This document shows, piece by piece, positions 21,769 to 43,313 of a stretch of 43,318 nt of DNA. The notes below the pieces were generated by a model that saw nothing but the letters and a program-made list of their open reading frames with translations, did not search any database and had not been told where the DNA came from. The translations under genes and the position numbers were made by a program. The stretch comes from Desulfocapsa sp. (GTDB lineage Bacteria; Desulfobacterota; Desulfobulbia; Desulfobulbales; Desulfocapsaceae). Where the stretch lies: contig JANTGG010000012.1 of assembly GCA_024763035.1 (NCBI GenBank), positions 1 to 43,318 on the forward strand, read 5' to 3'. Positions within the stretch are counted from its first letter, which is position 1. Every line of letters starts with the position of its first letter.

Positions 21769-22088
21769 ACTGAAAAGAGTGCCGGCTTACCGTTCATCAC
21801 CGGTGTTAGTATTCCTTAGAACCTCCCTGCACCAACCAACAATAGTGCAAATATTATTGACACCTACTTTCCTGTTTCATACACTCTTTCAAAGAGAAAA
21901 ACGTTGAACAAACAGGATTATTTCCCACATTAACGGCAACCCTCCGCCTTCATTTGAAGTATACAAAGCCATTCCCGACCAGGAGTTCAAAATTAACAGT
22001 ACCTTCAGGAATTGTCTGTCTTTTCAATTGCTCCTGCAACCATCACCTAAAATATTCCGCTGCCAATCCTCAACTAAACAAAGGATAC

Positions 22089-25000: not shown

Positions 25001-27647
25001 CAATGGTGAAACTAATGAAGGAAGGGCCTTTGTCTATCACGGTTCCGCCAATGGTCTCTCAGTTGATGCCGACTGGATGGCAGAAAGCAATCAGGCTGGA
25101 GCGCTCTTTGGTGCAGGGGTTGCCCCGGCTGGAGATGTTAACGGAGATGGCTACGCAGATGTGATTATTGGTGCAGACGGCTACAGCAATGGCGAGGAGT
25201 ATGAAGGAATGGCTGCTCTCTATCTCGGCTCCGCAACCGGTCTTATGGCACAACCTCTTACCAGATTGGAAGGTGAACAGGCCGGAGCCCACTTCGGCAG
25301 GGAAGTGGCTCCTGCCGGAGATGTGAACGGGGATGGTTACTCTGATATCATTATCGGTGCCTATGATTATGATAATGGTGAAGAGAACGAAGGGGGTGTT
25401 TTTGTCTTTCACGGTGGATCTACGGGATTGTCTGATAACGCCGTCTGGACAGGAGAAAGCAATCAGGCAGATGCTTATCTCGGTTATTCCGTGTCCACCG
25501 CTGGAGATGTGAATGGTGATGGCTATTCCGATGTTGTTGTCGGCGCTTACAAGTATGACAATGGGGAAATAGATGAAGGACGGATTTTTGTCTTTCATGG
25601 CTCCGCTGACGGGGTCTCCGCAACCGCCGACTGGACAGCGGAAAACAACGAGGCTGAATCCCGATTTGGTTATTCTGTCTCCACTGCCGGAGATGTGAAT
25701 GGAGACGGCTATTCCGATATTCTCACCGGTGCATATTATTTTGCCAACGGTGAAGCCTATGAAGGCCGTGCGTATGCCTATTATGGTTCTTCTGCTGGCC
25801 TGCCCCCATCACCTGATTGGGTAGTGGAAAGCAATCAGGTGGAAGGGACTCTTGGCTATTCCGTTTCCACTGCCGGTGATGTGAATGGTGACGGGTATTC
25901 TGATGTTGTCGTCGGAGCCTATGCCTACAATGGTGGTGAAGGAGCAGCATTTGTCTACCATGGTTCAGATCTGGGCCTCTCTTCCACACCCAACTGGGAG
26001 GCGAACGGTCCCGAGCAGCTTGATAACTATTTTGGGATGTCTGTCTCCAGCGCTGGAGATGTGAACGGGGACGGCTATTCTGACGTTATTGTCGGGGCAC
26101 CCTACCTTGATATCAATGGTACCGACGAAGGAAAAGTGTTTGTTTATCATGGTTCGTCGTCAGGTCTTGGTGTGGATGCCGAATGGACGATTGATGGAGA
26201 ACAGGACAGTGCGTATCTTGGCAGATCCGTTGCGCTGGCCGGAGATGTCAATGGAGATGGTTATTCTGACATTATTACCAGTGCACATCTTTATGACCAT
26301 GACGAGGTGGACGAGGGAAGAGTTTATGCCTTTTACGGTTCAGAGAACGGCTTGTCGATGGCCGCAGACTGGATCTCTGAGAGTGATCACCAGGATGCCA
26401 GGTATGGTTTCTCCCTTTCCACAGCAGGAGATACCAATGGTGATGGCTACTCCGATATCATTATCGGGGCCTATAGATTCAGTGACGGTTTCAGTGGCAA
26501 CGGGGCGGCCTTTATCTTTCAGGGGAGTGGGGCCGGTCTTTCCGGGGCAGCCGATGAAAAGATATCCATCCCCCAGGACTGGGCCTATTTTGGCCTTTCT
26601 GTTTCCACGGCAGGAGATGTAAACGGAGACGGCTACTCAGATGTTATTGTCGGTGCGCCCTATTTTGACAACGATGAAAATGCAGAGGGCAGTGCTTTTA
26701 TTTACTATGGCAACGGTCTGCCGGGACTGCAGAATGGTCTGCAGCAGTATGAACCGGATGGTTTTGAAGTTATAGGGGCTGGCGGGCGCAGCGGCGTTGC
26801 TGGTGAAATCCGGTTGAGCCAGTTTGCCAAAAGTCCCTTCGGCAGAACAAAAGGAAAGATGGTGTATGAATTCCAGGAAAACGGTACCTCTTTCAGCCTG
26901 GGAAGCTCTCTTGTCAATTCTGTATCCTCTTCTGGTAAACAGCCTGTCTTTTCCAACCTTGGCACTGTGGGGATTGCTCTGCAGGCAAATATCAACGGAC
27001 TCGATGGAAGCAGTCATTACCGATGGCGCTGTCGTACTGAGTACGAGCAGGCGAGCAACCCGTTTCAGAAATATAGTCCCTGGCGCTATTATAACAGCTA
27101 CAATCCTAAACCTTTTGCTGGATTTATGGCCTTTCTCGATGCATACACCCTTACGTATACAGCGTCGGATAACGGCAGCATCTCCGGGACAGCCATGCAA
27201 AATCTCAATTCCGGGATGGACGGAACGACGGTTGAAGCGCTGCCTGCGGCCGGCTATCATTTTGTCCACTGGAGTGATGGCTCAAGCAGCAACCCGCGAA
27301 CGGATATCGATGTCAGCGGGTCCCTCAACCTCATCGCCTATTTCAGCAATATGTATGGCTTGAATGTTCACGTAAATGTTAGCGGGACAGGGATCGTCAG
27401 CAGTAATCCGGAGGGGATAAACAACTGCAGTGATAACTGTTCTGCAGACTATTTGACAAACAGCCCGGTAAGCCTGACAGCAACAGCAGACCCAGGCAGT
27501 GTTTTTACCGGCTGGTCAGGCGGCTGTTCAGGTACTGGAACCTGCACGGTTGTTATGGACCAGGATCTTGAGGTAACAGCACAGTTTGCGAAAAAATTCT
27601 CCTGGCTGCTATTTCTGCCGGCAATTCTGCATGGTGTCGATGAGTAA
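22089..27647 (+). CDS. Giant secreted FG-GAP (integrin-alpha-like) repeat protein
   Basis: A 1,852-residue exported protein. I start at the ATG at 22089, which has AAGGA just before it and a clean signal peptide (MKNSILLILLLLLCCLSIPY, then SAHS). Residues ~25-265 form a domain I do not recognise. Then come 21 repeats of about 62 residues, each with a calcium-loop motif like GDVNGDGYSDVIVGA followed by VYHGSxxGL and a DW/AW element (first GDV at about residue 273, last ending near 1545). A fibronectin-like stretch and two bacterial InlB-B-type repeats (YTASDNGSISGTA..., VNVSGTGIVSSNPEG...) follow. The tail ends KKFSWLLFLPAILHGVDE. FG-GAP repeats fold as seven-bladed propellers that bind calcium and ligands, so adhesion or surface assembly is likely. 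It stands alone without a secretion partner. Confidence 0.88.
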   Translation: MKNSILLILLLLLCCLSIPYSAHSTKLPQSANQGWWQNVQKQIQQNEYSIQWSKKKQAYSSPNRKQNLRFTYHNNGFSVEPRTVNIPLFDVADMSISENEKKYKRLQNWELRLTFTGYGRDNVFFPFSSSNFSVDRNLASSENDDIIISYENNDKGMRQNFIVKKKPLGDETLQLRIHPRTKLAKQVSAHGILFTLADGSVAMRYNDLQVWDSDGKKLASYFTLHPSGDVLIEVDDSRAHYPITVDPLSNTADWSMESNHEKALFGYSSSMAGDVNNDGYDDIIIGAYNYDNGDAPKGKAYVYHGSSTGLPLTPAWVTQGGRFYGNSVSAAGDVNNDGFDDVIVGAYWADNDLERDGSAYVYFGSSTGLSSSPDWTAHGNNYRDQFGYSVSTAGDVNNDGFDDIIVGADRAGTDLYDEGEAYVFYGSATGPAAAPAWTRRGGPGQASFGCSVSTAGDVNGDGYADVIVGSHSIDNGHADEGKVYVFHGSSVGLSTTEAWAVEGNATQAHIGYSVSSAGDINNDGFDDVVIGGGSELGPGTTSGIAQVYYGSSTGLSTTAGWSVDGEEIGDCFGTSVSTAGDLNNDTFDDIIVGAYFQGQENKGKAYVYYGSVSGLSASPAWTMEGDQVDGFLGISVAGGGDINGDGYSDIIVGASHYDNGEENEGRVYVYLGSAAGVATVSDWNAESGQAEANMGISVFTAGDVNGDGFSDVIAGAYRYDNGQSNEGRAFVYHGSASGLSLTADWIAESDQPGSYFGHAASTAGDVNGDGYSDVIVAADNFDTAAQSTNPGRVFVYHGSESGLSSLPDWIADGEQFNEYFGSAVATAGDVNGDGFSDIVVGSYCYDDTGGNNEGKASVFHGSAAGLSTTADWAVVGEMEGALYSSSVSTAGDVNGDGFSDIIVGAQGHSNEEDNEGKSYLYLGSDSGLAVNAAWSTESNQVNANFGNSVSTAGDVNGDGYSDVIVGAFFYNNGETNEGRAFVYHGSANGLSVDADWMAESNQAGALFGAGVAPAGDVNGDGYADVIIGADGYSNGEEYEGMAALYLGSATGLMAQPLTRLEGEQAGAHFGREVAPAGDVNGDGYSDIIIGAYDYDNGEENEGGVFVFHGGSTGLSDNAVWTGESNQADAYLGYSVSTAGDVNGDGYSDVVVGAYKYDNGEIDEGRIFVFHGSADGVSATADWTAENNEAESRFGYSVSTAGDVNGDGYSDILTGAYYFANGEAYEGRAYAYYGSSAGLPPSPDWVVESNQVEGTLGYSVSTAGDVNGDGYSDVVVGAYAYNGGEGAAFVYHGSDLGLSSTPNWEANGPEQLDNYFGMSVSSAGDVNGDGYSDVIVGAPYLDINGTDEGKVFVYHGSSSGLGVDAEWTIDGEQDSAYLGRSVALAGDVNGDGYSDIITSAHLYDHDEVDEGRVYAFYGSENGLSMAADWISESDHQDARYGFSLSTAGDTNGDGYSDIIIGAYRFSDGFSGNGAAFIFQGSGAGLSGAADEKISIPQDWAYFGLSVSTAGDVNGDGYSDVIVGAPYFDNDENAEGSAFIYYGNGLPGLQNGLQQYEPDGFEVIGAGGRSGVAGEIRLSQFAKSPFGRTKGKMVYEFQENGTSFSLGSSLVNSVSSSGKQPVFSNLGTVGIALQANINGLDGSSHYRWRCRTEYEQASNPFQKYSPWRYYNSYNPKPFAGFMAFLDAYTLTYTASDNGSISGTAMQNLNSGMDGTTVEALPAAGYHFVHWSDGSSSNPRTDIDVSGSLNLIAYFSNMYGLNVHVNVSGTGIVSSNPEGINNCSDNCSADYLTNSPVSLTATADPGSVFTGWSGGCSGTGTCTVVMDQDLEVTAQFAKKFSWLLFLPAILHGVDE
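22881..26715 (+). repeat. Tandem array of 21 FG-GAP-coding units (~186 bp each)
   Basis: The coding DNA repeats with a period close to 186 bp and conserved cores encoding GDVNGDGYSD. Most units keep the DxDxDG calcium loop; unit 6 reads GDLNNDTFDD and lost the glycine. Later units (about 12-21) are more alike than the first six, which suggests expansion by unequal recombination toward the 3' side. Confidence 0.8.
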
Positions 27648-29086: not shown

Positions 29087-31666
29087 CTATTCCAGCTGTT
29101 CCACCCCTTTAACCAGATTGTAAAACGCACCTTTTTTTGAAATGAGCTCGGTAAACGAGCCCTCTTCCAGCAGAGCCCCGTTTTTGAGAAGGAGAATTCG
29201 GTCGTAGGCAGCGGAATTTTCCAGACGATGCATCACCGCGACAATGGTCTTGCCTTCTGTCTGCTGTGCCTCGAGTACATCGTGAATCCGCCGTTGGGAG
29301 ACATTGTCCAGGCTGGCTGTTGCCTCATCAAGAAAGATAATCGGGGTATCCCGCAGAAATGCCCGGGCAATGGCAAGTTTTTGTTTCTGCCCGCCGGACA
29401 GTCTATCCCCCTGGCTGCCCACATGAAAGTCCAGCCCCACATTGAGTACATCGTCGAGGATATCTTTTGCCAGCAGACTGTAGAGCAGGTTGGACAGCTC
29501 CTCACCCATGGGCTTGCGTGTCTTCATTACTCCAAACAGGATGTTTTCCAATAGAGGGCGACTGTACAGGTATTGGTTTGGACAAAACGGCATAAAGGGA
29601 CTGCTGATATCCTCTTTTTCACATTCAAAACATGATTTTTTGTCACCGTCACCGTCACCGTCACTGTCACTGTCGTCGTCATGATGGCAGGAGTTCATCT
29701 TCAGGTGGGCAACATTTTTGAGAAAGAGTTTCCGGGCACGGATAATCTTCTCTTCAAAGTCGGGTTCCACCTCTGCGACCTTGTGAAATCCTGGAATAAA
29801 ACGCAGGGCAAGCTGATAGAGGAGGTAGCGGTCTTTGCTGTTGTCGGGAATCTCCCCTTTGCTTTCATCGAGTAGTCGCTGATATTCTTTGAACTCCTCC
29901 GGTCTCATGGGAGTGTAGCGGAAGAAGAAGTCGTCGTTACGGCACTCTTCAAGCAGACTCACTGACTCAAGGGTTAGGGTATACCCGAGCTGCAGCAATG
30001 GTCTGACAAGGTCCGTAGTTTGCAGAATATTGATGAAAGACTGCAGTCCCGGCAGGTTTTCGATGTCGAAGAGACCGGTGGGACAGTCACCGAAAATCAG
30101 GTTGTCACGAATGGATGAATAGCGGAGGAAATGTTCCATGTCGTAGAACTCCACCACGTGGGCAAATTCTTCATGGAGTTGAGGGGCCAGATCGTGACGG
30201 ATTGTCAGCAGTTTCTCCTTGAAGGGAGCACAGCATTCTTTGTCCAGAATGGCCTGAAAACCGAAGCGGATGATATCTTCTTCAAGACCGGTATCATAGA
30301 TGGCATTGAGCTGCCTGCCAAGATCCGGCATCTCCTGTTTTCTACCAAGGGCAAGAGCTTTCACACCATAAAGCAGGTTCTCCCGGATTGTACCGGTGAA
30401 GATAAAGGGGTTCTGAGATATCAGAGTGATATTGCTGCTGATATCCGCTTTGCAGAGTTGTGAGATGGGGTGGTCGTCATACTGTATGCTTCCTGAAGAA
30501 AGGGAATAGAGCTGATCCATGCAGAGAATCAGGGTGGATTTCCCTGATCCGGAAAATCCGACAACGGCAATTCGTTCGCCGGAGGAAATTGAGGTGCTGA
30601 TCCGATCAAGCAGCTTTACTCTGCCGCCAACGGTGAAGGTGGCATTGGTCAGGGTGATGGCACCGCTGAAATCCGTCACACTGCCGGATTCGGGCAGGAG
30701 AGGATATTCCGGTTCAAGATCAAAAATCTCCATGATCTGTCTGTATTTCACCTGGGCATCCTGCAATGCCTGATAATATTCGAGAATCTCTTTCCAGGGG
30801 TCATAGACTTTTTCATGGGCTGAGAGAAAGGCTACCAGTGCCCCCAGGGTGAAGTTTCCGTTAATGGCAAAATATCCGCCCACCAGAAAGAGGAGAAATG
30901 GGCCGAAGGACTGAAAGAGGTTGTTGGAAAATTTAATGCCGTATTTGACAATAAACAGTCGTTTCAGCAGGCTGTACAGTCCGCTGATGTGGGGTCTGAT
31001 GCGTTCTTCTTCCAGTGGAAAGCTGGCGTGGGAATGGATTTCATGGATACCGCTGATTGCCTCGTTGACCACATTTGCCATGGCACGCATGGTCTTGATC
31101 CGTTTTTTGTTGAGCCGGTTATAGCGTTTCTGCAGCATGGGAATTAATATAATTTCAAACGGATAGAGGGCGATGGTCAGCAGGGCGAGGGGCGGACTGA
31201 GGATAAACATATAGCCCAGGAAGACAACAAAGGTAAGGAGGCTGGTCAGCGGGATAGCCAGGGCACCACCGAGAAAATACCCTATGGAGTTGAGCTCTGA
31301 GGTCATGGCAGAGATAACGGTACCCGGCTGCATACCCCGATAATATTGGAGGGGCAGCTGCAGAATGTGCTGATACAGGTGGGTACGCAGTTCCACCAGA
31401 ATTTTCTGGCCGATGACCATCTGCAGGACGTTTATGGCATACTTGGTTATTCCTGCGAGCAGCACCGAGGCGAGGTAGAATCCGCAGTAGAGAAAGAGCA
31501 GGTGCGTATCCCGGAGGTTGATGGCATCGTTGACAATGCGTTTCTGCATCTCCAGCGGTACAACACGGAAAAACAGACTCACTACAATGATCAGAAGCAG
31601 GAAGAGCTGCAGACCGCGATATCTGTGAAGGATCCAGAAAAAAAGCGGACGTTTGGTAATACGCAT
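29087..31666 (-). CDS. ABC exporter (fused membrane and ATPase domains) with a large insertion in the ATPase domain
   Basis: An 859-residue type IV ABC exporter half-transporter. Six membrane helices lie within about residues 18-300. The ATPase domain has Walker A GFSGSGKST (370-378), Q-loop Gln418, signature LSGGQ (756-760), Walker B IIFLDEA (776-782) and H-loop His813. Between Q-loop and signature, where about 60 residues are usual, there are about 335, so roughly 260 extra. The insert repeats a Q-loop-like phrase: FTGTIRENLLYG (423-434), RYSSIRDNLIFG (515-526) and YSRPLLENILFG (701-712), and contains an Asp/Ser/Gly run (663-675) beside SCFECEKED. AGGAGGAG precedes the ATG. The substrate is unknown. 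Confidence 0.88.
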   Translation of the reverse strand: MRITKRPLFFWILHRYRGLQLFLLLIIVVSLFFRVVPLEMQKRIVNDAINLRDTHLLFLYCGFYLASVLLAGITKYAINVLQMVIGQKILVELRTHLYQHILQLPLQYYRGMQPGTVISAMTSELNSIGYFLGGALAIPLTSLLTFVVFLGYMFILSPPLALLTIALYPFEIILIPMLQKRYNRLNKKRIKTMRAMANVVNEAISGIHEIHSHASFPLEEERIRPHISGLYSLLKRLFIVKYGIKFSNNLFQSFGPFLLFLVGGYFAINGNFTLGALVAFLSAHEKVYDPWKEILEYYQALQDAQVKYRQIMEIFDLEPEYPLLPESGSVTDFSGAITLTNATFTVGGRVKLLDRISTSISSGERIAVVGFSGSGKSTLILCMDQLYSLSSGSIQYDDHPISQLCKADISSNITLISQNPFIFTGTIRENLLYGVKALALGRKQEMPDLGRQLNAIYDTGLEEDIIRFGFQAILDKECCAPFKEKLLTIRHDLAPQLHEEFAHVVEFYDMEHFLRYSSIRDNLIFGDCPTGLFDIENLPGLQSFINILQTTDLVRPLLQLGYTLTLESVSLLEECRNDDFFFRYTPMRPEEFKEYQRLLDESKGEIPDNSKDRYLLYQLALRFIPGFHKVAEVEPDFEEKIIRARKLFLKNVAHLKMNSCHHDDDSDSDGDGDGDKKSCFECEKEDISSPFMPFCPNQYLYSRPLLENILFGVMKTRKPMGEELSNLLYSLLAKDILDDVLNVGLDFHVGSQGDRLSGGQKQKLAIARAFLRDTPIIFLDEATASLDNVSQRRIHDVLEAQQTEGKTIVAVMHRLENSAAYDRILLLKNGALLEEGSFTELISKKGAFYNLVKGVEQLE
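29643..29681. repeat. In-frame hexanucleotide/trinucleotide repeat in the ABC gene
   Basis: On the plus strand GTCACC repeats three times, then GTCACT twice, then GTC triplets. It encodes the alternating Asp-Gly/Asp-Ser run of the ATPase insertion. Changes in copy number by slippage would keep the frame and only alter the acidic run length. Confidence 0.75.
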
Positions 31667-31863: not shown

Positions 31864-33033
31864 TCAGGAGAGTGCCCGCTCCTTCACCCGTATCAGATAC
31901 AGGGCAAGCGGTCGGTAGAGGAGGTGTGCCCATTTGGCAAACGGGACCTCCAGAACCAGCATGGGGACAGCTATCATCATGTGGATAACGTAGATGTAAT
32001 ACGTGGACAGCGGCATACCCAGCAGTCGGGTAAAGTGAATCAGAATCCCGGTGAAGGTGGTCAGCCAGAGCAGGATCAGAAAGGCCCAGTCCGAAGAATG
32101 TGAGTATTTATAGACTGTCTTGGTCTTCTGCAGACGTCCGATAATGGCATAGGTGGTGCCGTATAAAATAGCGAAGGTTCCGTAATATCCCAGCAGCCTC
32201 ACCGGATGCCAGAAGGAGAGGATCTCATCACGCTGAAACCAGCGTAAAAAGACGACAACCAGGATAAAGATGGTGGAGTAGCCGGTCATAATCAGCAGAT
32301 GTATCAGCCACTGCATATCCTGACTTTTACTTTTGCAGTCTTTGAATCGTTTCTGGGTTGCGAAGTTAACCAGCAGGGTTTTCAGCTCATCGATATAGAG
32401 ACTCACGGGAATGCCGTTCCATTTTTTCCCTTCCGGAGCAGCAGGGGTATCATCCTCCGCATTTGTTTCCCGGGTATACTGGTCAGGGTCACCAAGCACA
32501 GCCCTTGCCATACGTCGGGCATTGGAGAGCAGGAATCCGGAGAGGATGAGCAGCATAATCAGGTCAAGGATCTCTATGACATGGCTGGAGGCAAATTCGT
32601 TCAATGCCACCCGGTCGGTGACAATGGGACCGTGAAAGAGGTAAAAACCTGTTCCAACAAGCCCAGCCACAAAGAGAATGGCACAAATCTCAAAGACTTT
32701 AGATGTGTAGAACAGGTGTGAAATCCCTGTCCAGTCGTAGCGTGCCGTGAGATAGCGCCGCAGCCCCATCATCACCTCACCGGGGTTGGCATCCCGCGGG
32801 CAGGTCTCGGAGCAGTCTCCACAGTAATAACAGAGCCATGGTTCCGGTGCGTGGAGCAGCTTTTCTTCGGCTCCAATCTGCAGGTAACGGATTACCTTGC
32901 GCGGAAAGGGGGTATCTTCTGAGGACAGGGTACAGACTGCTGTGCAGTTCCCGCAGTTGAAGCAGGTGGCTGCGTCCTCTACACCATATTTGTTCAGTTG
33001 GACAAGGAGACCGGGGTCAACGGAAGTGGCCAT
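31864..33033 (-). CDS. QmoC/HdrC-HdrE-like membrane iron-sulfur cytochrome b subunit
   Basis: A 389-residue protein. Two [4Fe-4S] motifs lie near the N-terminus (Cys24/27/30/34 and Cys68/71/74/78), as in HdrC. About six membrane helices with several histidines follow, as in NarI/HdrE-type cytochromes b. This fusion is the QmoC plan: electrons pass between the cytoplasmic Hdr-like flavoproteins and membrane quinone. I use the ATG at 33033, which has GGAGA 6 bases upstream; an in-frame TTG at 33072 has no site. It is the last gene of the operon. The 31667-31863 gap before the ABC gene shows no gene. Confidence 0.85.
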   Translation of the reverse strand: MATSVDPGLLVQLNKYGVEDAATCFNCGNCTAVCTLSSEDTPFPRKVIRYLQIGAEEKLLHAPEPWLCYYCGDCSETCPRDANPGEVMMGLRRYLTARYDWTGISHLFYTSKVFEICAILFVAGLVGTGFYLFHGPIVTDRVALNEFASSHVIEILDLIMLLILSGFLLSNARRMARAVLGDPDQYTRETNAEDDTPAAPEGKKWNGIPVSLYIDELKTLLVNFATQKRFKDCKSKSQDMQWLIHLLIMTGYSTIFILVVVFLRWFQRDEILSFWHPVRLLGYYGTFAILYGTTYAIIGRLQKTKTVYKYSHSSDWAFLILLWLTTFTGILIHFTRLLGMPLSTYYIYVIHMMIAVPMLVLEVPFAKWAHLLYRPLALYLIRVKERALS

Positions 33034-33094
33034 GATTTTCTCCAGAATTGTAGTATGTTTCCCGCCGGACAATGCGGCTGTTTACTGCTTACGA

Positions 33095-33382
33095 TCAGCA
33101 GGTCAGTTCATATTTGAAATAATCACCGTCTTTTGCCCCTTCGCCGACAATACCGTACCGTTTCAGGGTGGATATATATTGAAGAACCTGTTCCGTTTCC
33201 ATGGACACAGCCTCCGCAATCTCCGGAATGGTTTTGGGGGCAGGTGTCAGGGCTTCACGGATACCCTTGATGACACCACTCTGTTCTTTCACAGCAGCCC
33301 GTGCTTTAGCGATGGTTTCCGAACGTTCCTGACGAAGAACCTTCATTGCACTGCTGTTGGCTTTCTTTTCTTTTTCACTCAT
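33095..33382 (-). CDS. Small winged-helix-like protein in the Hdr/Qmo operon
   Basis: A 95-residue protein with a charged helical N-terminus and a C-terminal half resembling a winged helix (KTIPEIAEAVSMETEQVLQY ISTLKRYGIVGEG). It has no cofactor motif. It lies 18 bp after the large HdrA-like gene and before qmoC, so it is part of the same transcript. It may help assemble or regulate the complex; the function is unknown. Confidence 0.75.
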   Translation of the reverse strand: MSEKEKKANSSAMKVLRQERSETIAKARAAVKEQSGVIKGIREALTPAPKTIPEIAEAVSMETEQVLQYISTLKRYGIVGEGAKDGDYFKYELTC

Positions 33383-33400
33383 CTCGTTCCCCGGATATTT

Positions 33401-35251
33401 TCAAAATTTAACAATGGCATCAACCATATCTTCGTATTCCTGCAGGGACCAGCCCTGGACATCAATGGCATTTTCAGGACAGACTGCGACACACATGCCG
33501 CAGCCGGTACAGAGTGCCGGGTTGACTTCTGCCAGATTTCCGTTCATGGTAATGGCCTTTTCCGGACATTCTTCAATACATTTTCCACTGCCTTTGCATT
33601 TGTCGGTTTCGACGGCGGCAACAAAGGGATCGAGTTCCACATAGCCTTTACCAAGGAGGGCAACAGTTTTTGCTGCTGCAGCCTGGGCGGCGTTGCACAC
33701 CTCATTGATATCCATGGGTGCCTGACTGGTGCCGGCAAGGAAAATACCGCCGTTTGCCATCTCCACCGGACGCAGTTTGGGGTGCACTTCCTGGAGGAAT
33801 TTATCCGATCCCACCGGCAGCTTCATCATCTCCACCAGGCTGGTGATGGGAGCAGCCTGCATGCCGGTTGCGAGGACAACCAGGTCAACACCGACCTCTA
33901 TCTCTTCGTTAAAGGTCAGTTTGTCCCTGACGCGTACTGTGAGCGGATACTCACCGGATTCTCTTGTGATCACCGGAGATTCGTCCGGCTCATAGCGAAA
34001 GAAGAGCACATTCTTTTCCGAGGCTCTGTCGTAATAGTCCTCCTGGTTATGTCCGTAGGTTCGGATATCCCGGTAGAAATCCAGCACCTGGGTGTCGGGA
34101 TACCGGTCACGGATCTCCAGTGCCGCCTGCAGGGTGGCAGTGCAGCAGGTTCTGGAACAGTATTCGTTCAGGTAATCGTCTTCGTCTGCCTCATGGATGC
34201 CGGGGATCTGACGACTGCCGACACAGTGGATCATGGCGACCCTGCGTACGGTCCGGTTGTTGATTCGCAGGGTTCCTGAATCCTGTGGTGAGTCTGCCAT
34301 GTCCCGAATCAGTTGACGGAGAGTGATGACTTCTTCATTGTCACCGTAACCAAATTCTCCCCGGGAAGGTTCATACAGTTCAAAGCCGGTGGCAAAGATG
34401 ATGACACCAGTGGTCAGCGATTCCTCACTTGCCTCAGTCGGTGTCTGTCCGGGATAGTAACCGGCAAATGGGTGAAAATATTTTTCGCGGATATCTCCGG
34501 GAACAGCATCTGCCGGCGGTTTTTTGCTGACTGTGAGAGTAAAGTTACCGATATAGCCTTCAAACCCAGTGATTTCGGAGCATGGATAGATGGTGATGAG
34601 AGGCGATTTCATAACGGTATCGGCCAGGTAGGCGATCAGGTCGCCCGCTTTTTCACTGGTGGGAAAGACCCGGTCGAGTTTTGACGCATTGCCGCCGAGA
34701 AAGGGGGTCTTTTCTATGAGAGCCACTTCAATGCCGCTGGCGGCAAGATCAACGGCTGCGCGCAATCCGGCAATACCTCCGCCGATGATTGTTGCATGAT
34801 TGGCTGCATCCACCCGAATGGCTTCCAGAGGTTTCAGACCCCGTGCTTTGGCAATGGCGGCTGCGACCAGGGTGACGGCCTTGGATGTCGCCGGATCTCC
34901 ATGGTGTACCCAGGAATCCTGTTCGCGGATATTGGCATGTTCATAGAGATACGGGTTCATGTCCGCACGGCTGATAGCGCCACGAAAGGTCAGCTCATGG
35001 AGACTGGGGGCGCAGGAGGCGACAACCACCCTGTTAATGCTCCCCTCTTTGATGTCTTTCTGGATCAGTTCCTGACCCGGATCCGAGCACATGAACATGT
35101 CGGTGTGCGACACCTCAACACCGGGGATATCCTTCACCGCTTCGGCGACTTTTTTCACATCCACATGGTCAGATATATTGCCTCCGCAGTGACAAATATA
35201 GACGCCGACCCTGGGCTCTGCAGTTTCCTGTTTTTTTATTTCATCAGACAT
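33401..35251 (-). CDS. HdrA/QmoB-like flavin and iron-sulfur protein (616 aa)
   Basis: A cytoplasmic flavoprotein of the HdrA family. Order: N-terminal cysteine motif VYICHCGG (18-24), FAD-binding GGGIAG (157-162), the HdrA cysteine cluster NEYCSRTCC, and a C-terminal ferredoxin pair. The first ferredoxin motif reads C552-x2-Ser555-x2-C558-x3-C562, so its second Cys is Ser; the second motif (C581/584/587/591) is complete. QmoB of sulfate reducers ends in an MvhD domain. This protein lacks it, and a separate MvhD-like gene lies upstream in the operon. The role is probably electron transfer or bifurcation between a sulfur-carrier partner and the membrane subunit. Confidence 0.82.
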   Translation of the reverse strand: MSDEIKKQETAEPRVGVYICHCGGNISDHVDVKKVAEAVKDIPGVEVSHTDMFMCSDPGQELIQKDIKEGSINRVVVASCAPSLHELTFRGAISRADMNPYLYEHANIREQDSWVHHGDPATSKAVTLVAAAIAKARGLKPLEAIRVDAANHATIIGGGIAGLRAAVDLAASGIEVALIEKTPFLGGNASKLDRVFPTSEKAGDLIAYLADTVMKSPLITIYPCSEITGFEGYIGNFTLTVSKKPPADAVPGDIREKYFHPFAGYYPGQTPTEASEESLTTGVIIFATGFELYEPSRGEFGYGDNEEVITLRQLIRDMADSPQDSGTLRINNRTVRRVAMIHCVGSRQIPGIHEADEDDYLNEYCSRTCCTATLQAALEIRDRYPDTQVLDFYRDIRTYGHNQEDYYDRASEKNVLFFRYEPDESPVITRESGEYPLTVRVRDKLTFNEEIEVGVDLVVLATGMQAAPITSLVEMMKLPVGSDKFLQEVHPKLRPVEMANGGIFLAGTSQAPMDINEVCNAAQAAAAKTVALLGKGYVELDPFVAAVETDKCKGSGKCIEECPEKAITMNGNLAEVNPALCTGCGMCVAVCPENAIDVQGWSLQEYEDMVDAIVKF

Positions 35252-35332
35252 TCCTGTATCTCCGTTTTCACCCGTTGTAAGATCCGCCTGTAAAGCAGAG
35301 CCGTTTTCGGATTCTTTCCCGATGGTATACGA

Positions 35333-36637
35333 TCAAGCAGTTGAACCGTTTAGTGCCTTGAGATAATTTGCTGCCTCCATGGCAGCGGCACCGGCCTCGG
35401 TGATGGTATCTACGATATCCTTTGGACCCGATGCCACTCCGGCGGTAAAGACTCCTTCGAGGTCTGTGACCGTGGGTGCAATCTTGGGTATTGCAGGTTT
35501 TATGAATCCGTCCTGACCGCAGCCCACCGAACAGATGCCCTCCGGGTTCCATTGGGGAACCATCCCCAGTGAAAGAATCACCAGATCATGATCCCGTTCC
35601 ATCACACCGCCGCTTCCCTCCTGGTCTTCGTAACGAAGCATGACCTTCTGGTCATCCGCCTGGGAAATCTGAGCGACCTTGGCTTTGACAAATTCAATGC
35701 CCATGGCTTTTGCATTCTGGTAAAACTGTTCATACCCTTTACCGAAGGCACGAATATCCATGTAATAGATAGTGATATCGGCAAGGGGCAGTGCACCCGA
35801 GAGAAGCATCGCCTGTTTGATGGCATACATGCAGCAGACCCGTGAACAGTAAGGGATACCAAGACTCTTGTCCCGTGATCCTGCACACTGCACGTAGGCG
35901 ATGGAATCAGGTTCCCGACCGTCCGAGGGACGCAGTACCCTGTTGTACGGGCCATGGGGAGCAAGCAGACGTTCCATCTGCATGGAGCTGACCACGTTCT
36001 GCAGCCTGCCAAGCCCGTATTGCGGTTTCTGGTCCAGAGGCGAAAGTTCAAAGCCTGTGGCAAGGACTGCGGTGGATGCTGTGAGGGTGATTGCCTCAGG
36101 TTTCATGAAATAGTCCACGGCATCAGTGGGACAGACCTTGGCACACTTTCCGCATAAAGCGCAATTTTCGGCATCGAGCAGGGCAATCTGCGGGATGGCA
36201 TTGGAAAAGGGGATATAGATGGCCTTGCGCATGTTAAAACCGCCCTGCTCGTCATCGGGAACATAGACCGGGCAGTCATATTCACATTTACGGCAGCCGA
36301 TACATTTGTCCGGATCAACATAACGGGGCTTCTGGGTCAGTTGGGCAACGACCCTGTCCGGTGATTCCCGTTTGAGATTGTCCAGGGTACAGTAAGTAAA
36401 CAGGGTGATGTTGTCATGATGGGCAGCCGACGACATCTTGGGTGTAGTGATACAGCTGGCACAGTCCAGAGTCGGAAAAACCTTGGACAGCCGGATCATC
36501 TTACCGCCGATAGTTGCGTCCTTGTCCACCACGGCCACTGTATACCCCTGGTCGCCGAGGTCGAGTGCGGACTGCAGTCCGGCAATGCCGCCGCCGATGA
36601 CAATGGCATCAAATTGAAAGTCACGCTTGGATTTCAT
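35333..36637 (-). CDS. HdrA/QmoA-like flavin and iron-sulfur protein (434 aa)
   Basis: A flavoprotein with FAD-binding GGGIAG (15-20), the HdrA/QmoA hallmark TLDCASCITTPKM (Cys59, Cys62), and two ferredoxin motifs (Cys112/115/118/122 and Cys159/162/165/169). A further cysteine motif, IPYCSRVCC, lies near residue 270. It is about QmoA length but keeps two ferredoxin clusters inserted in the flavin fold, as in HdrA. GGGAG is 7 bases before the ATG. It probably dimerises or pairs with the 616-residue paralogue encoded next. Confidence 0.85.
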   Translation of the reverse strand: MKSKRDFQFDAIVIGGGIAGLQSALDLGDQGYTVAVVDKDATIGGKMIRLSKVFPTLDCASCITTPKMSSAAHHDNITLFTYCTLDNLKRESPDRVVAQLTQKPRYVDPDKCIGCRKCEYDCPVYVPDDEQGGFNMRKAIYIPFSNAIPQIALLDAENCALCGKCAKVCPTDAVDYFMKPEAITLTASTAVLATGFELSPLDQKPQYGLGRLQNVVSSMQMERLLAPHGPYNRVLRPSDGREPDSIAYVQCAGSRDKSLGIPYCSRVCCMYAIKQAMLLSGALPLADITIYYMDIRAFGKGYEQFYQNAKAMGIEFVKAKVAQISQADDQKVMLRYEDQEGSGGVMERDHDLVILSLGMVPQWNPEGICSVGCGQDGFIKPAIPKIAPTVTDLEGVFTAGVASGPKDIVDTITEAGAAAMEAANYLKALNGSTA

Positions 36638-36745
36638 GGGATTCTCCCTTCCTCATTGCATCTGTTGCTCACGTTCATACGTGTCACTGTATGAGTAGCT
36701 ATGTTTTTTCTAATCAATTCCGTCCAGTTCTGATTTGCGACATCT

Positions 36746-37171
36746 TTATGCCTCTGCGGCATCCTTGAAGACCGGAGGGCCAAGCTCTTTGATCAGGGCA
36801 TTCATATCGTTGACTTCCTTTAGAAACGGCCGGTTGCACACCGTACAGATGGCAGTCAGCCGCAGGCGGCGCAGGTCAATATCCTGGGCCTTCATCAGCT
36901 GGAATACGTTGTCTATTCGTTTGGCAAAAGCGTGATACGCCCCCTCATACGGGCACTCTTCGCCGCAGGACATGACGATGATTCCGCTTATTCCCTTTCT
37001 GAAACAGTCCATGTAAAAGTGCTCCGGAAAGAGTACTGGTGCCCTTACACGCAGGATGTAGGTGTTCGCGGGGTAGCTGGAATGCGCCTGTCCCACTGAG
37101 TTTGCTCCGGGATAGGCACAGGATTCGGTTGCCAGGATGAGTATTTTTCCCTCGTTTGCGTCAGTTGCCAT
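36746..37171 (-). CDS. MvhD/FlpD-like hydrogenase-type iron-sulfur subunit
   Basis: A 141-residue protein of the MvhD/FlpD family, which carries a [2Fe-2S] cluster and hands electrons to HdrA. Conserved cysteines: Cys18 (ESCAYPG), Cys56, Cys69 and Cys73 (SCGEECPYEG), and Cys109 and Cys112 (ICTVCNRPF). In QmoB this domain is fused to the C-terminus of the HdrA-like protein; here it is separate. AAAGG lies 8 bases before the ATG. Upstream, 37172-37409 has no convincing gene. Confidence 0.85.
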   Translation of the reverse strand: MATDANEGKILILATESCAYPGANSVGQAHSSYPANTYILRVRAPVLFPEHFYMDCFRKGISGIIVMSCGEECPYEGAYHAFAKRIDNVFQLMKAQDIDLRRLRLTAICTVCNRPFLKEVNDMNALIKELGPPVFKDAAEA

Positions 37172-37409
37172 GGTCAGGTACCTTTATCAGTAAACAGAAG
37201 TCTGAAGGCAGAATTGTTCGTATATGCGGCAGGGGGGAAGCCGCAATACGCCTTTGACAGACAAGTCTGCTTACGTTTGTTGTTGTGCTCACTGCACCGG
37301 TGCTATGGGGAACCGGTAATCGACCATGACGCATGCAGGTACATGGCCGATTTCTTCGTTTGCTGCAGCTGAAGCCGGAATCTCCGGTTTAGCTGTTCTT
37401 TCCGGAGCC

Positions 37410-37658
37410 CTATTTCTTACGGGTGATATAATGCTTGTCGTATCCGTCAGCTTCCACGTAGCCCAGATAGTCATGACCGACCTTGTTGGCCCAAGCCTTC
37501 AGGTCGATGCGGGTTCCTTCGTCGTTTGAGTAAATCTCCAGTTCTTCACCTACCTTGACTTTGCCGATGCCTTTCTTGGCTTCGAGCAGGGGGCCGGGAC
37601 AGGCAGAGCCACGGGAATCGATGGTGCTTGCTGCGCTAACGTTGCTTAAATCGGACAT
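37410..37658 (-). CDS. TusA-like sulfur carrier protein
   Basis: An 82-residue protein of the TusA/SirA fold. The persulfide-carrying Cys20 lies in GSACPGPLLEAKKGI, the CPxP motif with Gly at x. TusA proteins carry sulfane sulfur between proteins and, in sulfur oxidisers and disproportionators, deliver it to Hdr- or Dsr-type systems. AAGGAG lies 6 bases before the ATG. In this operon it probably receives or donates sulfur with the DsrE-like protein. The closest functional class is uncertain. Confidence 0.88.
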   Translation of the reverse strand: MSDLSNVSAASTIDSRGSACPGPLLEAKKGIGKVKVGEELEIYSNDEGTRIDLKAWANKVGHDYLGYVEADGYDKHYITRKK

Positions 37659-37751
37659 GTTGATCTCCTTAGTGAATGTATTTTTTATTCGTGAGTTATG
37701 ATGATAATACCTTTACTGACTACCATCAAAGCACAGTTACTCTGGATTGGA

Positions 37752-37827
37752 TGTAGGAGCTCGCCCTTGCGAGCGATTCAAGGTGTTGCCAGACCTGTAA
37801 AATCGCTCGCAGGGGCGAGCTCCCACA
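37752..37827. repeat. REP pair (BIME-like) between dsrE-like and tusA-like genes
   Basis: Left unit 37752-37778 begins TGTAGGAGCTCGCC and right unit 37801-37827 is its inverse; the two agree at 25 of 27 positions. Each unit has its own small stem (CTCGC-N4-GCGAG). Another copy lies at 43287-43313. This is the arrangement of REP/BIME elements mobilised by RAYT transposases. Lying inside the operon, it could modulate mRNA stability. Confidence 0.7.
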
Positions 37828-37881
37828 GTCCATTTTGTATTTACCTGAGCTTCAATGGTAATCACGATACCTTGTGTTTAA

Positions 37882-38253
37882 TTACCAGCCGATGACCTGG
37901 TCTGCCTCCAGGAACATGTCGTTCACAACTGTTCCTGTCAGTGCCTCAACACCATCCACCAGCATGGACTGCTCCACCTTGCGGGATTTGATGCAGGGCA
38001 GACAGCACATGATTCTGCCGCCGTTTTCAATAAAGTCGCTTATCAGCCGATCCAGCGGTAAACGATCCAGGGAATGAACGGTCTCGCCAACCCCTTTATA
38101 GACCAGTCTGGTTGCCTCACCAAAGACCATGATCGTTACGTCCTGTTCCATGGACACGCCAATGTTGGCAACGGCAAAACAGGTGAGGACTTTTTCGGCT
38201 CTTTCCGGTCCGTCATGCAGGACATACACTAATTTTTTGTCTTCATCGGACAT
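37882..38253 (-). CDS. DsrE-family sulfur-trafficking protein
   Basis: A 123-residue DsrE/DsrF-like protein with the fold markers VYVLHDGPERAEKVLTCFAV, VTIMVFGEAT and a conserved cysteine group at IMCCLPC (Cys83, Cys84, Cys87). DsrE-type proteins bind persulfide on such a cysteine and exchange it with TusA. AAGGAG lies 7 bases before the ATG. It lies upstream of the tusA-like gene in the same operon. It is longer than a minimal DsrE subunit, and no DsrF or DsrH partner is present. Confidence 0.8.
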   Translation of the reverse strand: MSDEDKKLVYVLHDGPERAEKVLTCFAVANIGVSMEQDVTIMVFGEATRLVYKGVGETVHSLDRLPLDRLISDFIENGGRIMCCLPCIKSRKVEQSMLVDGVEALTGTVVNDMFLEADQVIGW

Positions 38254-38264
38254 ACTTTTTCTCC

Positions 38265-38426
38265 TTAATAGGCAATCTTTCTTACCGGCAGCAGGGCCGG
38301 AACATAATAAAACAGGCTGACCTGTTCCTCTTTATCCACAATGGCACCCCTCTCCGGAATCTCCACCCGATACAGTGTCCGGGAGATTCTTTTGAATAAC
38401 GATCCGGTGATGGACAGGGTCTTCAT
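38265..38426 (-). CDS. Possible small protein (53 aa) overlapping the operon's first gene
   Basis: The frame reads MKTLSITGSLFKRISRTLYR, VEIPERGAIVDKEEQVSLFY and ends in a hydrophobic VPALLPV segment. AGGA lies 5 bases before the ATG and its stop codon touches the ribosome site of the DsrE-like gene, a tight operon arrangement. It overlaps the end of the 94-residue gene by about 95 bases in another frame, which is unusual. Either both are translated, or one frame is the true end after a frameshift or sequence error. Confidence 0.4.
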   Translation of the reverse strand: MKTLSITGSLFKRISRTLYRVEIPERGAIVDKEEQVSLFYYVPALLPVRKIAY

Positions 38427-38616
38427 ACTGATCCTGCTCAACAATTGTATATTCCGAAGAGGGCAGCACTTTGAATAATTCTTCAGGCATCTGAGCTCCG
38501 CCGTAGATAAATTCAATTGACTCACCACATGTTGTTTCCCTGAACGCCTGACTCACCTTGAGCAGTGTAAAGGGATCCAGCACACCATGAAGTTTAAATT
38601 GCCGCCGTATTTTCAT
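38332..38616 (-). CDS. First gene of the sulfur operon: small TusA/SirA-resembling protein
   Basis: A 94-residue protein: KLHGVLDPFTLLKVSQAFRE, then GGAQMPEELFKVLPSSEYTI, ending EGCHCG. The order strand-helix(LDPFTLLKVSQAF)-strand-helix resembles the TusA/SirA fold, but the CPxP cysteine is replaced by DPF and other cysteines are present (CGESIEF; tail CHC). The reading frame continues up to 38658 with TTG, but that codon lies inside the sigma-54 promoter, so the ATG at 38616 is the likely start, about 30 bases after the predicted transcript start. The tail overlaps another reading frame. Family assignment is tentative. Confidence 0.55.
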   Translation of the reverse strand: MKIRRQFKLHGVLDPFTLLKVSQAFRETTCGESIEFIYGGAQMPEELFKVLPSSEYTIVEQDQYEDPVHHRIVIQKNLPDTVSGGDSGEGCHCG

Positions 38617-38653
38617 CGAGGTCCACAGTTGTTTGAACAGTTGCGGGTTGTTA

Positions 38654-38670
38654 AGCAACCATCGTGCCAG
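38654..38670 (-). promoter_or_regulatory. Sigma-54 (-24/-12) promoter of the sulfur/Hdr-Qmo operon
   Basis: The minus strand reads CTGGCACGATGGTTGCT, which fits the sigma-54 consensus YTGGCACGRNNNTTGCW at every defined base, with the GG and GC elements correctly spaced. It points toward the operon and lies about 40 bp before its first ATG. A sigma-54 activator gene is divergent and adjacent. Confidence 0.85.
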
Positions 38671-38797
38671 ATGATAGCATGATTACTTGTGATGAGTAGA
38701 AATGTTGTTAATGTATGTAGATTCAAAGGGATGCGTTATTGTAAAATGGGGTGAAGAAAAACTGACTAAGAAAAAAAGACACATTTCAGAATAAAAG

Positions 38798-38844
38798 TGT
38801 TAAAGTGTTAATGCTAAGATTTTAACACTATGTAAACTTTAACA
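38798..38844. promoter_or_regulatory. Candidate enhancer (UAS) for the sigma-54 activator
   Basis: Four TGTTAA half-sites lie here: 38798 and 38806 on the plus strand, and inverted as TTAACA at 38822 and 38839. They make nested inverted repeats, AGTGTTAA-N10-TTAACACT (38804-38829) and TGTTAAAG...CTTTAACA (38798-38844). They lie about 130-175 bp upstream of the -24 element, normal for enhancer-binding proteins, and 13-59 bp before the activator's own start, which suggests autoregulation too. Confidence 0.65.
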
Positions 38845-38856
38845 GTGAGTTAAACA

Positions 38857-40230
38857 ATGCTTGAACAGGAACTGAATCAATATTGGAAGACTGTGGTCGA
38901 TACCATTCAGGAAGGGGTGATGATTGTTGCCCCGGGAGGTATTATTGTTTTCGCCAATCTGGCCTTTCTGGAATTGACAGGCTACGAACTGGATGAACTT
39001 GTCGGTCAGCCCTGTTCGCGCCTGAACTGCACCGCCTGCCGCAATGAACGGAAGAGAGAACAGAGTCACTGGTGTCGTCTGTTTCGACATGGTGAAATCA
39101 AAAAACAGCGCTGTGTACTGGTTCGCAGGGATGGGAGCAGGGTGCATATATTCAAGAATGCCAGTGTTCTCCGTGACAGGGATGGCGAGGTTATCGGCGC
39201 GGTGGAGACCATGACCGATATCACAGAAGTCCTGGAGAAGGAAACAAAAATCGAGGCCTTTAAACGGGAATTGACGGCACAGGACACCTTCCACGGCATG
39301 GTGGGGCATTCTGCTCCCATGCAGCGGGTCTATAATATGATCGGGAACGCAGCGGAGTCTGATGCCCCGGTGATTATTTACGGTGAGTCCGGTACAGGAA
39401 AAGAACTGGCAGCCCAGGCAGTGCACGATATCTCCAGTCGCCGTGATTATCCCTATGTGAAGGTCAACTGTGCCGCATTAAATCCGTCCCTGGTGGAAAG
39501 TGAGCTGTTCGGGCATGTAAAGGGTGCCTTTACCAGTGCCATTCAGAACAGAAAAGGCAGATTTGAGGCGGCAGACCGGGGCAGTATCTTTCTCGATGAA
39601 ATAGGAGACCTGCCGCTGGAAACACAGGTGAAACTCCTGCGGGTCCTTGAGGAAAAGACCATCCGCCGTGTTGGTGATAACAAAGCCATCCCCGTTGATG
39701 TGCGTATTATTTCAGCTACCAATAAGGATGTTGTGGCGATGGTGAAGGAGGGGACTTTTCGTGAAGATTTCTTTTATAGAATCAATGTGATCCCCCTGGA
39801 AATCCTGCCGGTACGGGAGCGTGCAGAAGACATTTCTCTCCTTGCCGAATCATTTTTCAGAAAAATGCAGCTGAAGATGGATAAGGATATACGTGGTATC
39901 AGCAGTGAGGCGATGGATCTGCTTATTCACTACAGCTGGCCGGGTAATGTGCGTGAACTGAGAAGTACCTTTGAGTACGCCTTTGTGACCTGCCAGGGAC
40001 ATACCATTATACCCGAGGACCTGCCGGGCACCATTGTCCGGTCAAAATCTCAAACAGCCGGTCCTCCTCCCCCAATGCCGGTTGATAAAAATGAACGGCA
40101 GAAGCAGGAGCTGGTCAAGGCCTTGCAGGAAACAGGCGGCAACCAGACACGGGCTGCAGAAATTCTGGGAGTATCCCGGGTAACGGTATGGAACAGAATG
40201 AAACGTTTTGGTATTTCACCTGAGGGCTAA
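38857..40230 (+). CDS. Sigma-54 activator: PAS domain, AAA+, Fis-type HTH
   Basis: A 457-residue NtrC-class enhancer-binding protein without a receiver domain. PAS sensor at residues ~8-125, AAA+ domain ~146-390 with Walker A GESGTGKE (176-183), Walker B IFLDEIGD (244-251) and arginine-finger region, and a Fis-like HTH at ~413-455 (GGNQTRAAEILGVSRVTVWN). The sigma-54 contact loop reads GAFTSA (223-228) instead of GAFTGA. The PAS domain has an inserted cysteine loop (Cys53, Cys58, Cys61, Cys73), which could bind an iron-sulfur cluster or form disulfides, so a redox or sulfur signal is plausible. It is divergent from the sulfur operon and almost certainly its activator. Confidence 0.9.
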   Translation: MLEQELNQYWKTVVDTIQEGVMIVAPGGIIVFANLAFLELTGYELDELVGQPCSRLNCTACRNERKREQSHWCRLFRHGEIKKQRCVLVRRDGSRVHIFKNASVLRDRDGEVIGAVETMTDITEVLEKETKIEAFKRELTAQDTFHGMVGHSAPMQRVYNMIGNAAESDAPVIIYGESGTGKELAAQAVHDISSRRDYPYVKVNCAALNPSLVESELFGHVKGAFTSAIQNRKGRFEAADRGSIFLDEIGDLPLETQVKLLRVLEEKTIRRVGDNKAIPVDVRIISATNKDVVAMVKEGTFREDFFYRINVIPLEILPVRERAEDISLLAESFFRKMQLKMDKDIRGISSEAMDLLIHYSWPGNVRELRSTFEYAFVTCQGHTIIPEDLPGTIVRSKSQTAGPPPPMPVDKNERQKQELVKALQETGGNQTRAAEILGVSRVTVWNRMKRFGISPEG

Positions 40231-43286: not shown

Positions 43287-43313
43287 TGTAGGAACTCGCC
43301 CCTGCGAGCGATT
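43287..43313 (+). repeat. REP unit at the window end
   Basis: TGTAGGAACTCGCCCCTGCG and the following GAGCGATT match the units of the REP pair at 37752-37827, with one change (GAA for GAG). The window ends before a possible inverted partner. Confidence 0.65.

Follow-up and report, generated by a model that had tools for sequence, protein, structure and literature searches.

Sulfur carriers beside an Hdr/Qmo-type module behind a conserved sigma-54 promoter in Desulfocapsa and its relatives

Gene content of the operon

We analysed a stretch of 43,318 nucleotides from the sulfate-reducing bacterium Desulfocapsa sp. (GenBank assembly GCA_024763035.1, contig JANTGG010000012.1, positions 1 to 43,318 of the forward strand; hereafter the window), in which eight genes form a single leftward operon, from 38616 to 31864, behind a -24/-12 (sigma-54) promoter and a divergent activator gene. 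All eight open reading frames (ORFs) lie where the initial annotation had placed them, and the Pfam and NCBIfam profile scans used to assign protein families backed its gene content, apart from two weak cases. On the minus strand, in order of transcription, the genes encode a TusA-like protein without the CPxP cysteine (TusL, 94 amino acids (aa), 38332..38616), a DsrE-family protein (123 aa, 37882..38253; Pfam DsrE, 5e-13), a TusA sulfur carrier (82 aa, 37410..37658; Pfam TusA, 8e-18) and an MvhD/FlpD subunit (141 aa, 36746..37171; FlpD/MvhD, 3e-19). These are followed by HdrA1, of the HdrA/QmoA type with flavin adenine dinucleotide and iron-sulfur (Fe-S) sites (434 aa, 35333..36637), and HdrA2, an HdrA-type flavoprotein with a C-terminal ferredoxin domain (616 aa, 33401..35251), both assigned by Pfam/NCBIfam. 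A small winged-helix-like protein (95 aa, 33095..33382) separates HdrA2 from the terminal module, a QmoC-like subunit comprising an HdrC-type Fe-S domain and a membrane part (402 aa, 31864..33072).

The two weak identities come from weak family matches and motifs read by eye. The first protein, initially described as resembling TusA/SirA, does match Pfam TusA (0.001), but below the cut-off, and alignments show no conserved cysteine at the TusA position. Its start is most likely the ATG at 38616, since the alternative TTG at 38658 falls within the promoter. The 95-residue protein is called winged-helix-like by resemblance, and its match to PF25212 is sub-threshold (0.0049), but the protein itself is conserved: 67 of the 80 loci of our cross-phylum sample (the best 80 loci listed, which favours close relatives) have it close to HdrA1. 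We rejected it as a regulator. It stays near HdrA1 while the upstream regulator gene varies between groups, which makes a structural role the likelier one.

Among copies recovered by ORF calling, C20 of TusA is kept in 33/33 aligned sequences and C84 and C87 of DsrE, a CxxC pair, in 26/26. The eight HdrC-type cysteines of the QmoC-like subunit are kept in all 49 rows that have QmoC as best match. Some rows missing from the cysteine alignment, and some 'none' labels in the HdrA1 tree, stem from ORF calling.

A long, near-perfect palindrome lies inside the operon between tusA and dsrE (37745-37840; RNA fold -62.1 kcal/mol, z -10.95). By its look it resembles a repetitive extragenic palindromic element or a miniature inverted-repeat transposable element, and a partial second copy is found at 43292-43311. 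About 60 bp separate the two genes in one relative (L015). The palindrome may lower the expression of genes downstream of dsrE.

The promoter and its activator

The promoter, TGGCACGATGGTTGCT, occupies 38654..38669 on the minus strand and was assigned by consensus match and conservation. Read from 38669 to 38654, it is the sole perfect match to TGGCACN5TTGCW in the window. The match alone proves little, since with one mismatch allowed the window contains 3 matches, against a chance mean of 2.3. Across the whole genome, however, TGGCAYN5TTGCT has 15 matches (another of them in the window, at 14655) versus 0 for the reversed control, and in two relatives the counts are 13 versus 2 and 12 versus 3.

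The activator gene (38857..40230, plus strand) starts 188 bases upstream of the -24/-12 site and runs in the opposite direction. It encodes a protein of 457 aa with a PAS domain, a sigma-54 AAA+ domain and a Fis helix-turn-helix (HTH), recognised by Pfam/NCBIfam and alignments, as expected of the NtrC-class activator initially proposed. The PAS domain carries five conserved cysteines (C53, C58, C61, C73 and C86, numbered by eye). Between promoter and activator, beside the activator start, lie overlapping inverted repeats of TGTTAA/TTAACA half-sites (38796..38844), found by repeat search and conservation, which probably form the activator-binding region. The window has a single match to TGTTAAN{8,11}TTAACA (38806-38827), and 100 shuffles gave none. 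Divergent activator, -24/-12 promoter and upstream repeats together reproduce a FisR-like layout.

We then compared this arrangement in other genomes. HdrA1 orthologs at 1e-100 were present in 6 of the 96 genomes of a first survey, own genome included; with only 5 of 95 relatives carrying one, the operon is an accessory cassette. One of the five is cut by a contig end. The other four have a divergent activator 68-75% identical to that of the window, at a nearly constant distance between the -24/-12 site and the activator start; the site is perfect in two and has one or two mismatches in the other two.

For the 80 loci we defined a close group (HdrA1 identity of at least 65%, plus L054-L056; fixed after first inspection). 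The distant group includes L048, which the HdrA1 tree also places there, L049 and L070 (Deltaproteobacteria), some records labelled only 'bacterium', and archaeal records. Desulfosarcina cetonica and Desulfamplus magnetovallimortis, both in culture, are among the species sampled. A strong -24/-12 site, scoring at least 19.5 of 20.5 by a threshold chosen after first inspection, precedes 27 of the 31 testable close-group loci, none of the 39 more distant loci and 12 of 2139 background tiles (close versus distant, Fisher 1.7e-15, for loci that share descent and with groups and threshold set after the data had been inspected). This test leaves out L016 (a copy of L022), L099 (no HdrA1 match) and 4 and 9 loci without usable upstream sequence. 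In a second set, drawn from a phylum survey, 17 of 20 further testable genomes have a strong site, after setting aside 6 regions judged to repeat earlier loci, 2 loci without usable upstream sequence and L138, at a contig start.

The activator is adjacent to the operon in 25 of the 31 close-group loci (23 divergent, 2 co-directional), and divergent and adjacent in 12 of the 20 second-set loci. Of 24 divergent intergenic regions, 21 contain TGTTAA half-sites next to the activator; 200 shuffles reached a maximum of 10. The pattern C-x4-C-x2-C…C…C is present in every one of the 21 divergent activators of the first set whose PAS could be read (19 through a pattern search, with L034 and L040 added from the alignment), as it is in 16/16 second-set activator frames, four of them repeats. 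In the Desulfobacula loci L038 and L045 a co-directional activator replaces the divergent one and the -24/-12 site is kept.

If the pairing of promoter match and activator arose by chance, a sigma-70 promoter would transcribe the operon. The 15 consensus matches across the genome and the chance-level count of one-mismatch matches in the window suit this explanation. Nevertheless, we consider it extremely improbable, given the contrast between close and distant loci, its recurrence in the second set and the scarcity of sigma-70-like sites (3 in 9.5 kb, against a shuffled mean of 8.1). A chance origin of the promoter was rejected on the reversed-control counts and on conservation in both locus sets. 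Gene content, promoter, repeats and cysteines are conserved jointly in sequence, and the initial proposal of a signal-controlled unit, in which sulfur carriers and an Hdr/Qmo-type module share sigma-54 control and a cysteine-bearing PAS activator, is borne out within the close group.

Distribution and relation to known systems

The core of the cluster consists of TusA, MvhD, HdrA1, HdrA2, the winged-helix-like protein and a terminal module. It is complete in 58 of the 80 loci, many of the other 22 being truncated at contig ends, and it extends outside Desulfobacterota to Acidobacteriota, Chloroflexota, Planctomycetota and Elusimicrobiota. TusA lies within the cluster neighbourhood in 69/80 loci. 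A scan of the contig collection with the window DsrE as query found no relative. In one branch of the cluster HdrC and HdrB take the place of QmoC, and the HdrB copies, obtained by ORF calling, carry in 21-22 of 22 cases a cysteine set that we take to be the CCG motif of HdrB-type proteins. This suggests a thiol/disulfide end in place of the quinone end in that branch. The link to the quinone pool proposed at first is backed by family, through the QmoC-like subunit, and is not universal.

The HdrC and HdrB branch is the one found in two genomes of the genus to which the window belongs, while the window copy groups with other genera. Within the flanking sequence recovered, L015, L022, L017 and L018 have no gene in common with the window except operon and activator; L042 additionally shares a downstream ABC transporter. 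Because flanks are unshared and own-genus genomes carry a different branch, the distribution fits a movable unit and horizontal exchange. The GC content differs only mildly (0.52 in the operon, 0.47 in its surroundings). Directly downstream, in the same orientation, a gene (29087-31666, minus strand) encodes an ABC exporter-like protein interrupted by a long insert that contains cysteines; among 15 genomes searched, a copy of 72-73% follows the cluster in L042, and other matches are at 40-57%. Two further genes recur near the cluster: DsrE2 (PF13686) in 13 loci, all of the distant group (for example L068, 14871-15428), and a coenzyme A (CoA)-disulfide-reductase/rhodanese-type gene in 7 loci, two of them in the close group (for example L089, 4874-6529). 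These counts come from clustering, with one representative of each scanned. Farther away in the window, 21954-27647 (plus strand) encodes a 1897-aa protein with many FG-GAP-like repeats, a family named by eye only.

Relatives of TusA and DsrE function in tRNA thiolation, and the carriers of the operon could likewise serve biosynthesis (tRNA thiolation, molybdenum cofactor, Fe-S or selenium) with the cluster standing apart from energy metabolism. The genome has only one other TusA-family match (contig C165), in a frame also matching DsrE, as this explanation would have it. We judge it improbable, since a switched promoter and an accessory distribution, which in a phylum survey at 1e-130 amounted to 30 of 395 genomes, own included, are ill-suited to housekeeping.

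We compared the operon with QmoABC, which shares two HdrA-type flavoproteins and an HdrC-like/membrane subunit. Here the neighbours are TusA and DsrE rather than AprAB, and no Apr was found among the operon-neighbour ORFs scanned. The QmoC-like subunit and paired HdrA proteins could nonetheless belong to a second Qmo serving adenylylsulfate (APS) reductase, with TusA and DsrE incidental. This is very improbable, as the operon subunit scores 194.7 bits against a cut-off of 300 for the QmoC equivalog NF038018, whereas the canonical QmoC of the same genome scores 420.9 and is encoded with its QmoABC partners on contig C53, beside aprBA. In addition, canonical QmoA falls outside all HdrA1 rows of the tree, although its branch is very long and its placement unsure, and the cluster is found in genomes without dsrA above the cut-off. 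A QmoABC duplicate for APS was rejected on the QmoC cut-off, the HdrA1 tree and the position of the canonical qmo genes. QmoB carries a C-terminal MvhD domain; HdrA2 has no FlpD match, and MvhD is a separate gene. HdrA1 and HdrA2 also stay below the HdrA models NF040770 (457 and 519.5 bits, cut-off 1100) and NF041778 (354.2 and 403.7 bits, cut-off 1400). The operon is set apart from canonical Qmo. Neukirchen 2023 (PMC10504309) distinguishes qmo types I and II and describes type II qmoAB as nearer to hdrA, with a role that is unclear. A second HdrA pair with MvhD occurs elsewhere in the genome (L021; G000:C84, 51-3540), its HdrA proteins about 36-37% identical; the first has an in-frame TGA, and selenocysteine is possible.

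The sHdr–LbpA systems, as described for Hyphomicrobium (PMC6067878) and for a Thermomicrobium cluster (PMC6776052), also encode Hdr-like proteins with TusA and DsrE. Unlike them, the window operon has a paired HdrA, MvhD and a QmoC-like end, and its lack of the HdrB-type CCG subunit of sHdr contrasts with the HdrB of one branch of relatives. No lipoate-binding protein family was found among the operon proteins, to which that search was confined. The YTD cluster (YeeE–TusA–DsrEFH type II; PMC13293266, PMC12998232) similarly places TusA with a DsrE-family carrier in Desulfobacterota. The operon differs in its single DsrE-family protein and in having an Hdr/Qmo module instead of YeeE. Membership of the YTD cluster was rejected, as the own genome has no YeeE/YedE (PF04143) match in a 92% complete assembly and YeeE passes its cut-off in 31 of the 54 carrier genomes.

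A dsrA gene above cut-off is present in 26 of 52 carrier genomes, the own genome among them, and in 0/14 control genomes (this survey covers the genomes of 50 of the 80 loci plus G000 and G033; that for YeeE adds G003 and G015). The close group accounts for 20/23, own included, against 6/29 for the others. Outside the close group, 23/29 genomes are without dsrA above cut-off and 17/29 without both dsrA and YeeE, completeness figures lacking for these genomes, and for this reason Dsr, YeeE and the YTD cluster seem not to be required by the operon. The same counts weaken sulfur disproportionation as its purpose, which had been suggested, as does the missing YeeE/YedE match in the own genome, although dsrA is there.

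Of the 39 testable distant loci, 19 have a gene of the ArsR family upstream, against 0/31 in the close group. Each of the 22 members of the ArsR ORF cluster contains one cysteine or more; in those of L062, L063, L071 and L098, one cysteine directly precedes the HTH and another is near the C-terminus, a layout that we take to resemble SqrR/BigR. One scanned copy reaches 76 bits with the BigR model NF040642, below its cut-off of 155. In Acinetobacter (PMC7315123), sulfide/persulfide genes are under the control of both FisR (sigma-54) and BigR, and FisR is without the cysteines reported for Cupriavidus FisR. The window shares with FisR a divergent sigma-54 activator and a sigma-54 promoter for sulfur genes, and BigR is of the ArsR type, the other regulator class seen upstream of distant loci. 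The likeness to that source is one of layout, and the target here is an Hdr/Qmo-type operon, not sqr–pdo. We found no description of the gene set or its sigma-54 control in the Creative Commons-licensed PubMed Central full text, a scope that excludes supplements and most subscription papers; in the D. vulgaris sigma-54 regulome (PMC4641369), the main text gave no match for tusA, dsrE, sirA, hdrA or heterodisulfide. The gene set is a variant related to known Qmo, sHdr and carrier systems, and the initial annotation foresaw neither the spread of its core over phyla, nor the ArsR alternative, nor the exchange of the quinone end, nor the accessory distribution.

Proposed mechanism and its meaning

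We propose, with a probability of about 0.55 from the sequence comparisons, that the operon encodes a persulfide-carrier/Hdr complex that exchanges electrons with menaquinone, operates in the oxidative direction and is induced through sigma-54 by reactive sulfur. HdrA1, HdrA2, MvhD and the QmoC-like subunit would form the redox complex, with the winged-helix-like protein probably a structural part. Its partner would be the persulfide carrier TusA, joined by DsrE in the window's group, playing the part that AprAB plays for QmoABC. Sulfane sulfur on C20 of TusA and C84/C87 of DsrE would be presented to the flavin and Fe-S modules, and the QmoC-like subunit would exchange the electrons with menaquinone; in relatives without QmoC the exchange would be with the CCG-motif HdrB. 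Transcription would stay off until the divergent activator, having bound the TGTTAA/TTAACA repeats, opens sigma-54 RNA polymerase at the -24/-12 site. Reactive sulfur or redox state is probably what its five-cysteine PAS detects.

The preferred flow, from sulfide or protein-bound sulfane sulfur to menaquinone, is chosen solely from redox potentials. In the opposite direction, the complex would reduce carrier-bound persulfide to sulfide with menaquinol and a low-potential donor by flavin confurcation, and would serve sulfur respiration or reactive-sulfur removal. HdrA and MvhD participate in confurcation in known systems, and the many carriers outside the close group without dsrA, together with the CoA-disulfide-reductase/rhodanese-type neighbours, suit sulfur reduction or detoxification. 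We regard this direction as unlikely, however, as menaquinol alone is too weak a reductant by its potential and family scans recognised no gene for a second donor in the operon.

Several observations weigh against the proposed oxidative, persulfide-induced complex. A strong -24/-12 site is absent in 7 of 51 testable loci (L025, L028, L042 and L047 in the first set; L150, L153 and L157 in the second, L157 narrowly at 19), and an adjacent activator in 14 of 51 (6/31 and 8/20), 4 of these 14 near a contig end. Activators that are not neighbours of the cluster can likewise carry the five-cysteine PAS (L025, L034, L045), and the co-directional activators of L038 and L045 are without it. Only 29/80 loci, mainly those of the close group, have DsrE within 7 kb; in L018 the promoter, the activator and the Hdr genes are present but the cluster contains neither TusA nor DsrE, and L092-L095 and L097 are without TusA. 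The QmoC version has no HdrB/CCG site and hence, as far as sequence can tell, no evident site for a persulfide reaction. Finally, the scanned ArsR could be a metal sensor, because it passes the general ArsR/SmtB metalloregulator model alone (77.6 versus 55).

More tentatively, and at somewhat less than even odds, the cluster may be a distinct, multi-phylum sulfane-sulfur:quinone oxidoreductase that can work without DsrAB. It would combine TusA, often DsrE, HdrA1, HdrA2 and MvhD with an exchangeable QmoC or HdrCB end, under control that has been rewired between a cysteine-PAS sigma-54 activator, in Desulfobacterota, and a BigR-like ArsR, in many other bacteria.

These results bear on the open question of how zero-valent sulfur passes to or from the electron chain in sulfur-disproportionating and sulfur-oxidising anaerobes with reductive Dsr. 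Sulfur carriers recurring beside a quinone-type module provide a testable candidate for this transfer, also in phyla without Dsr. The regulator classes at the cluster are known elsewhere to answer persulfides, and the gene set would also give sulfate reducers a sigma-54 regulon with a predicted inducer. The operon suggests a route, little described so far, by which loosely bound sulfur could be linked to the respiratory chain.

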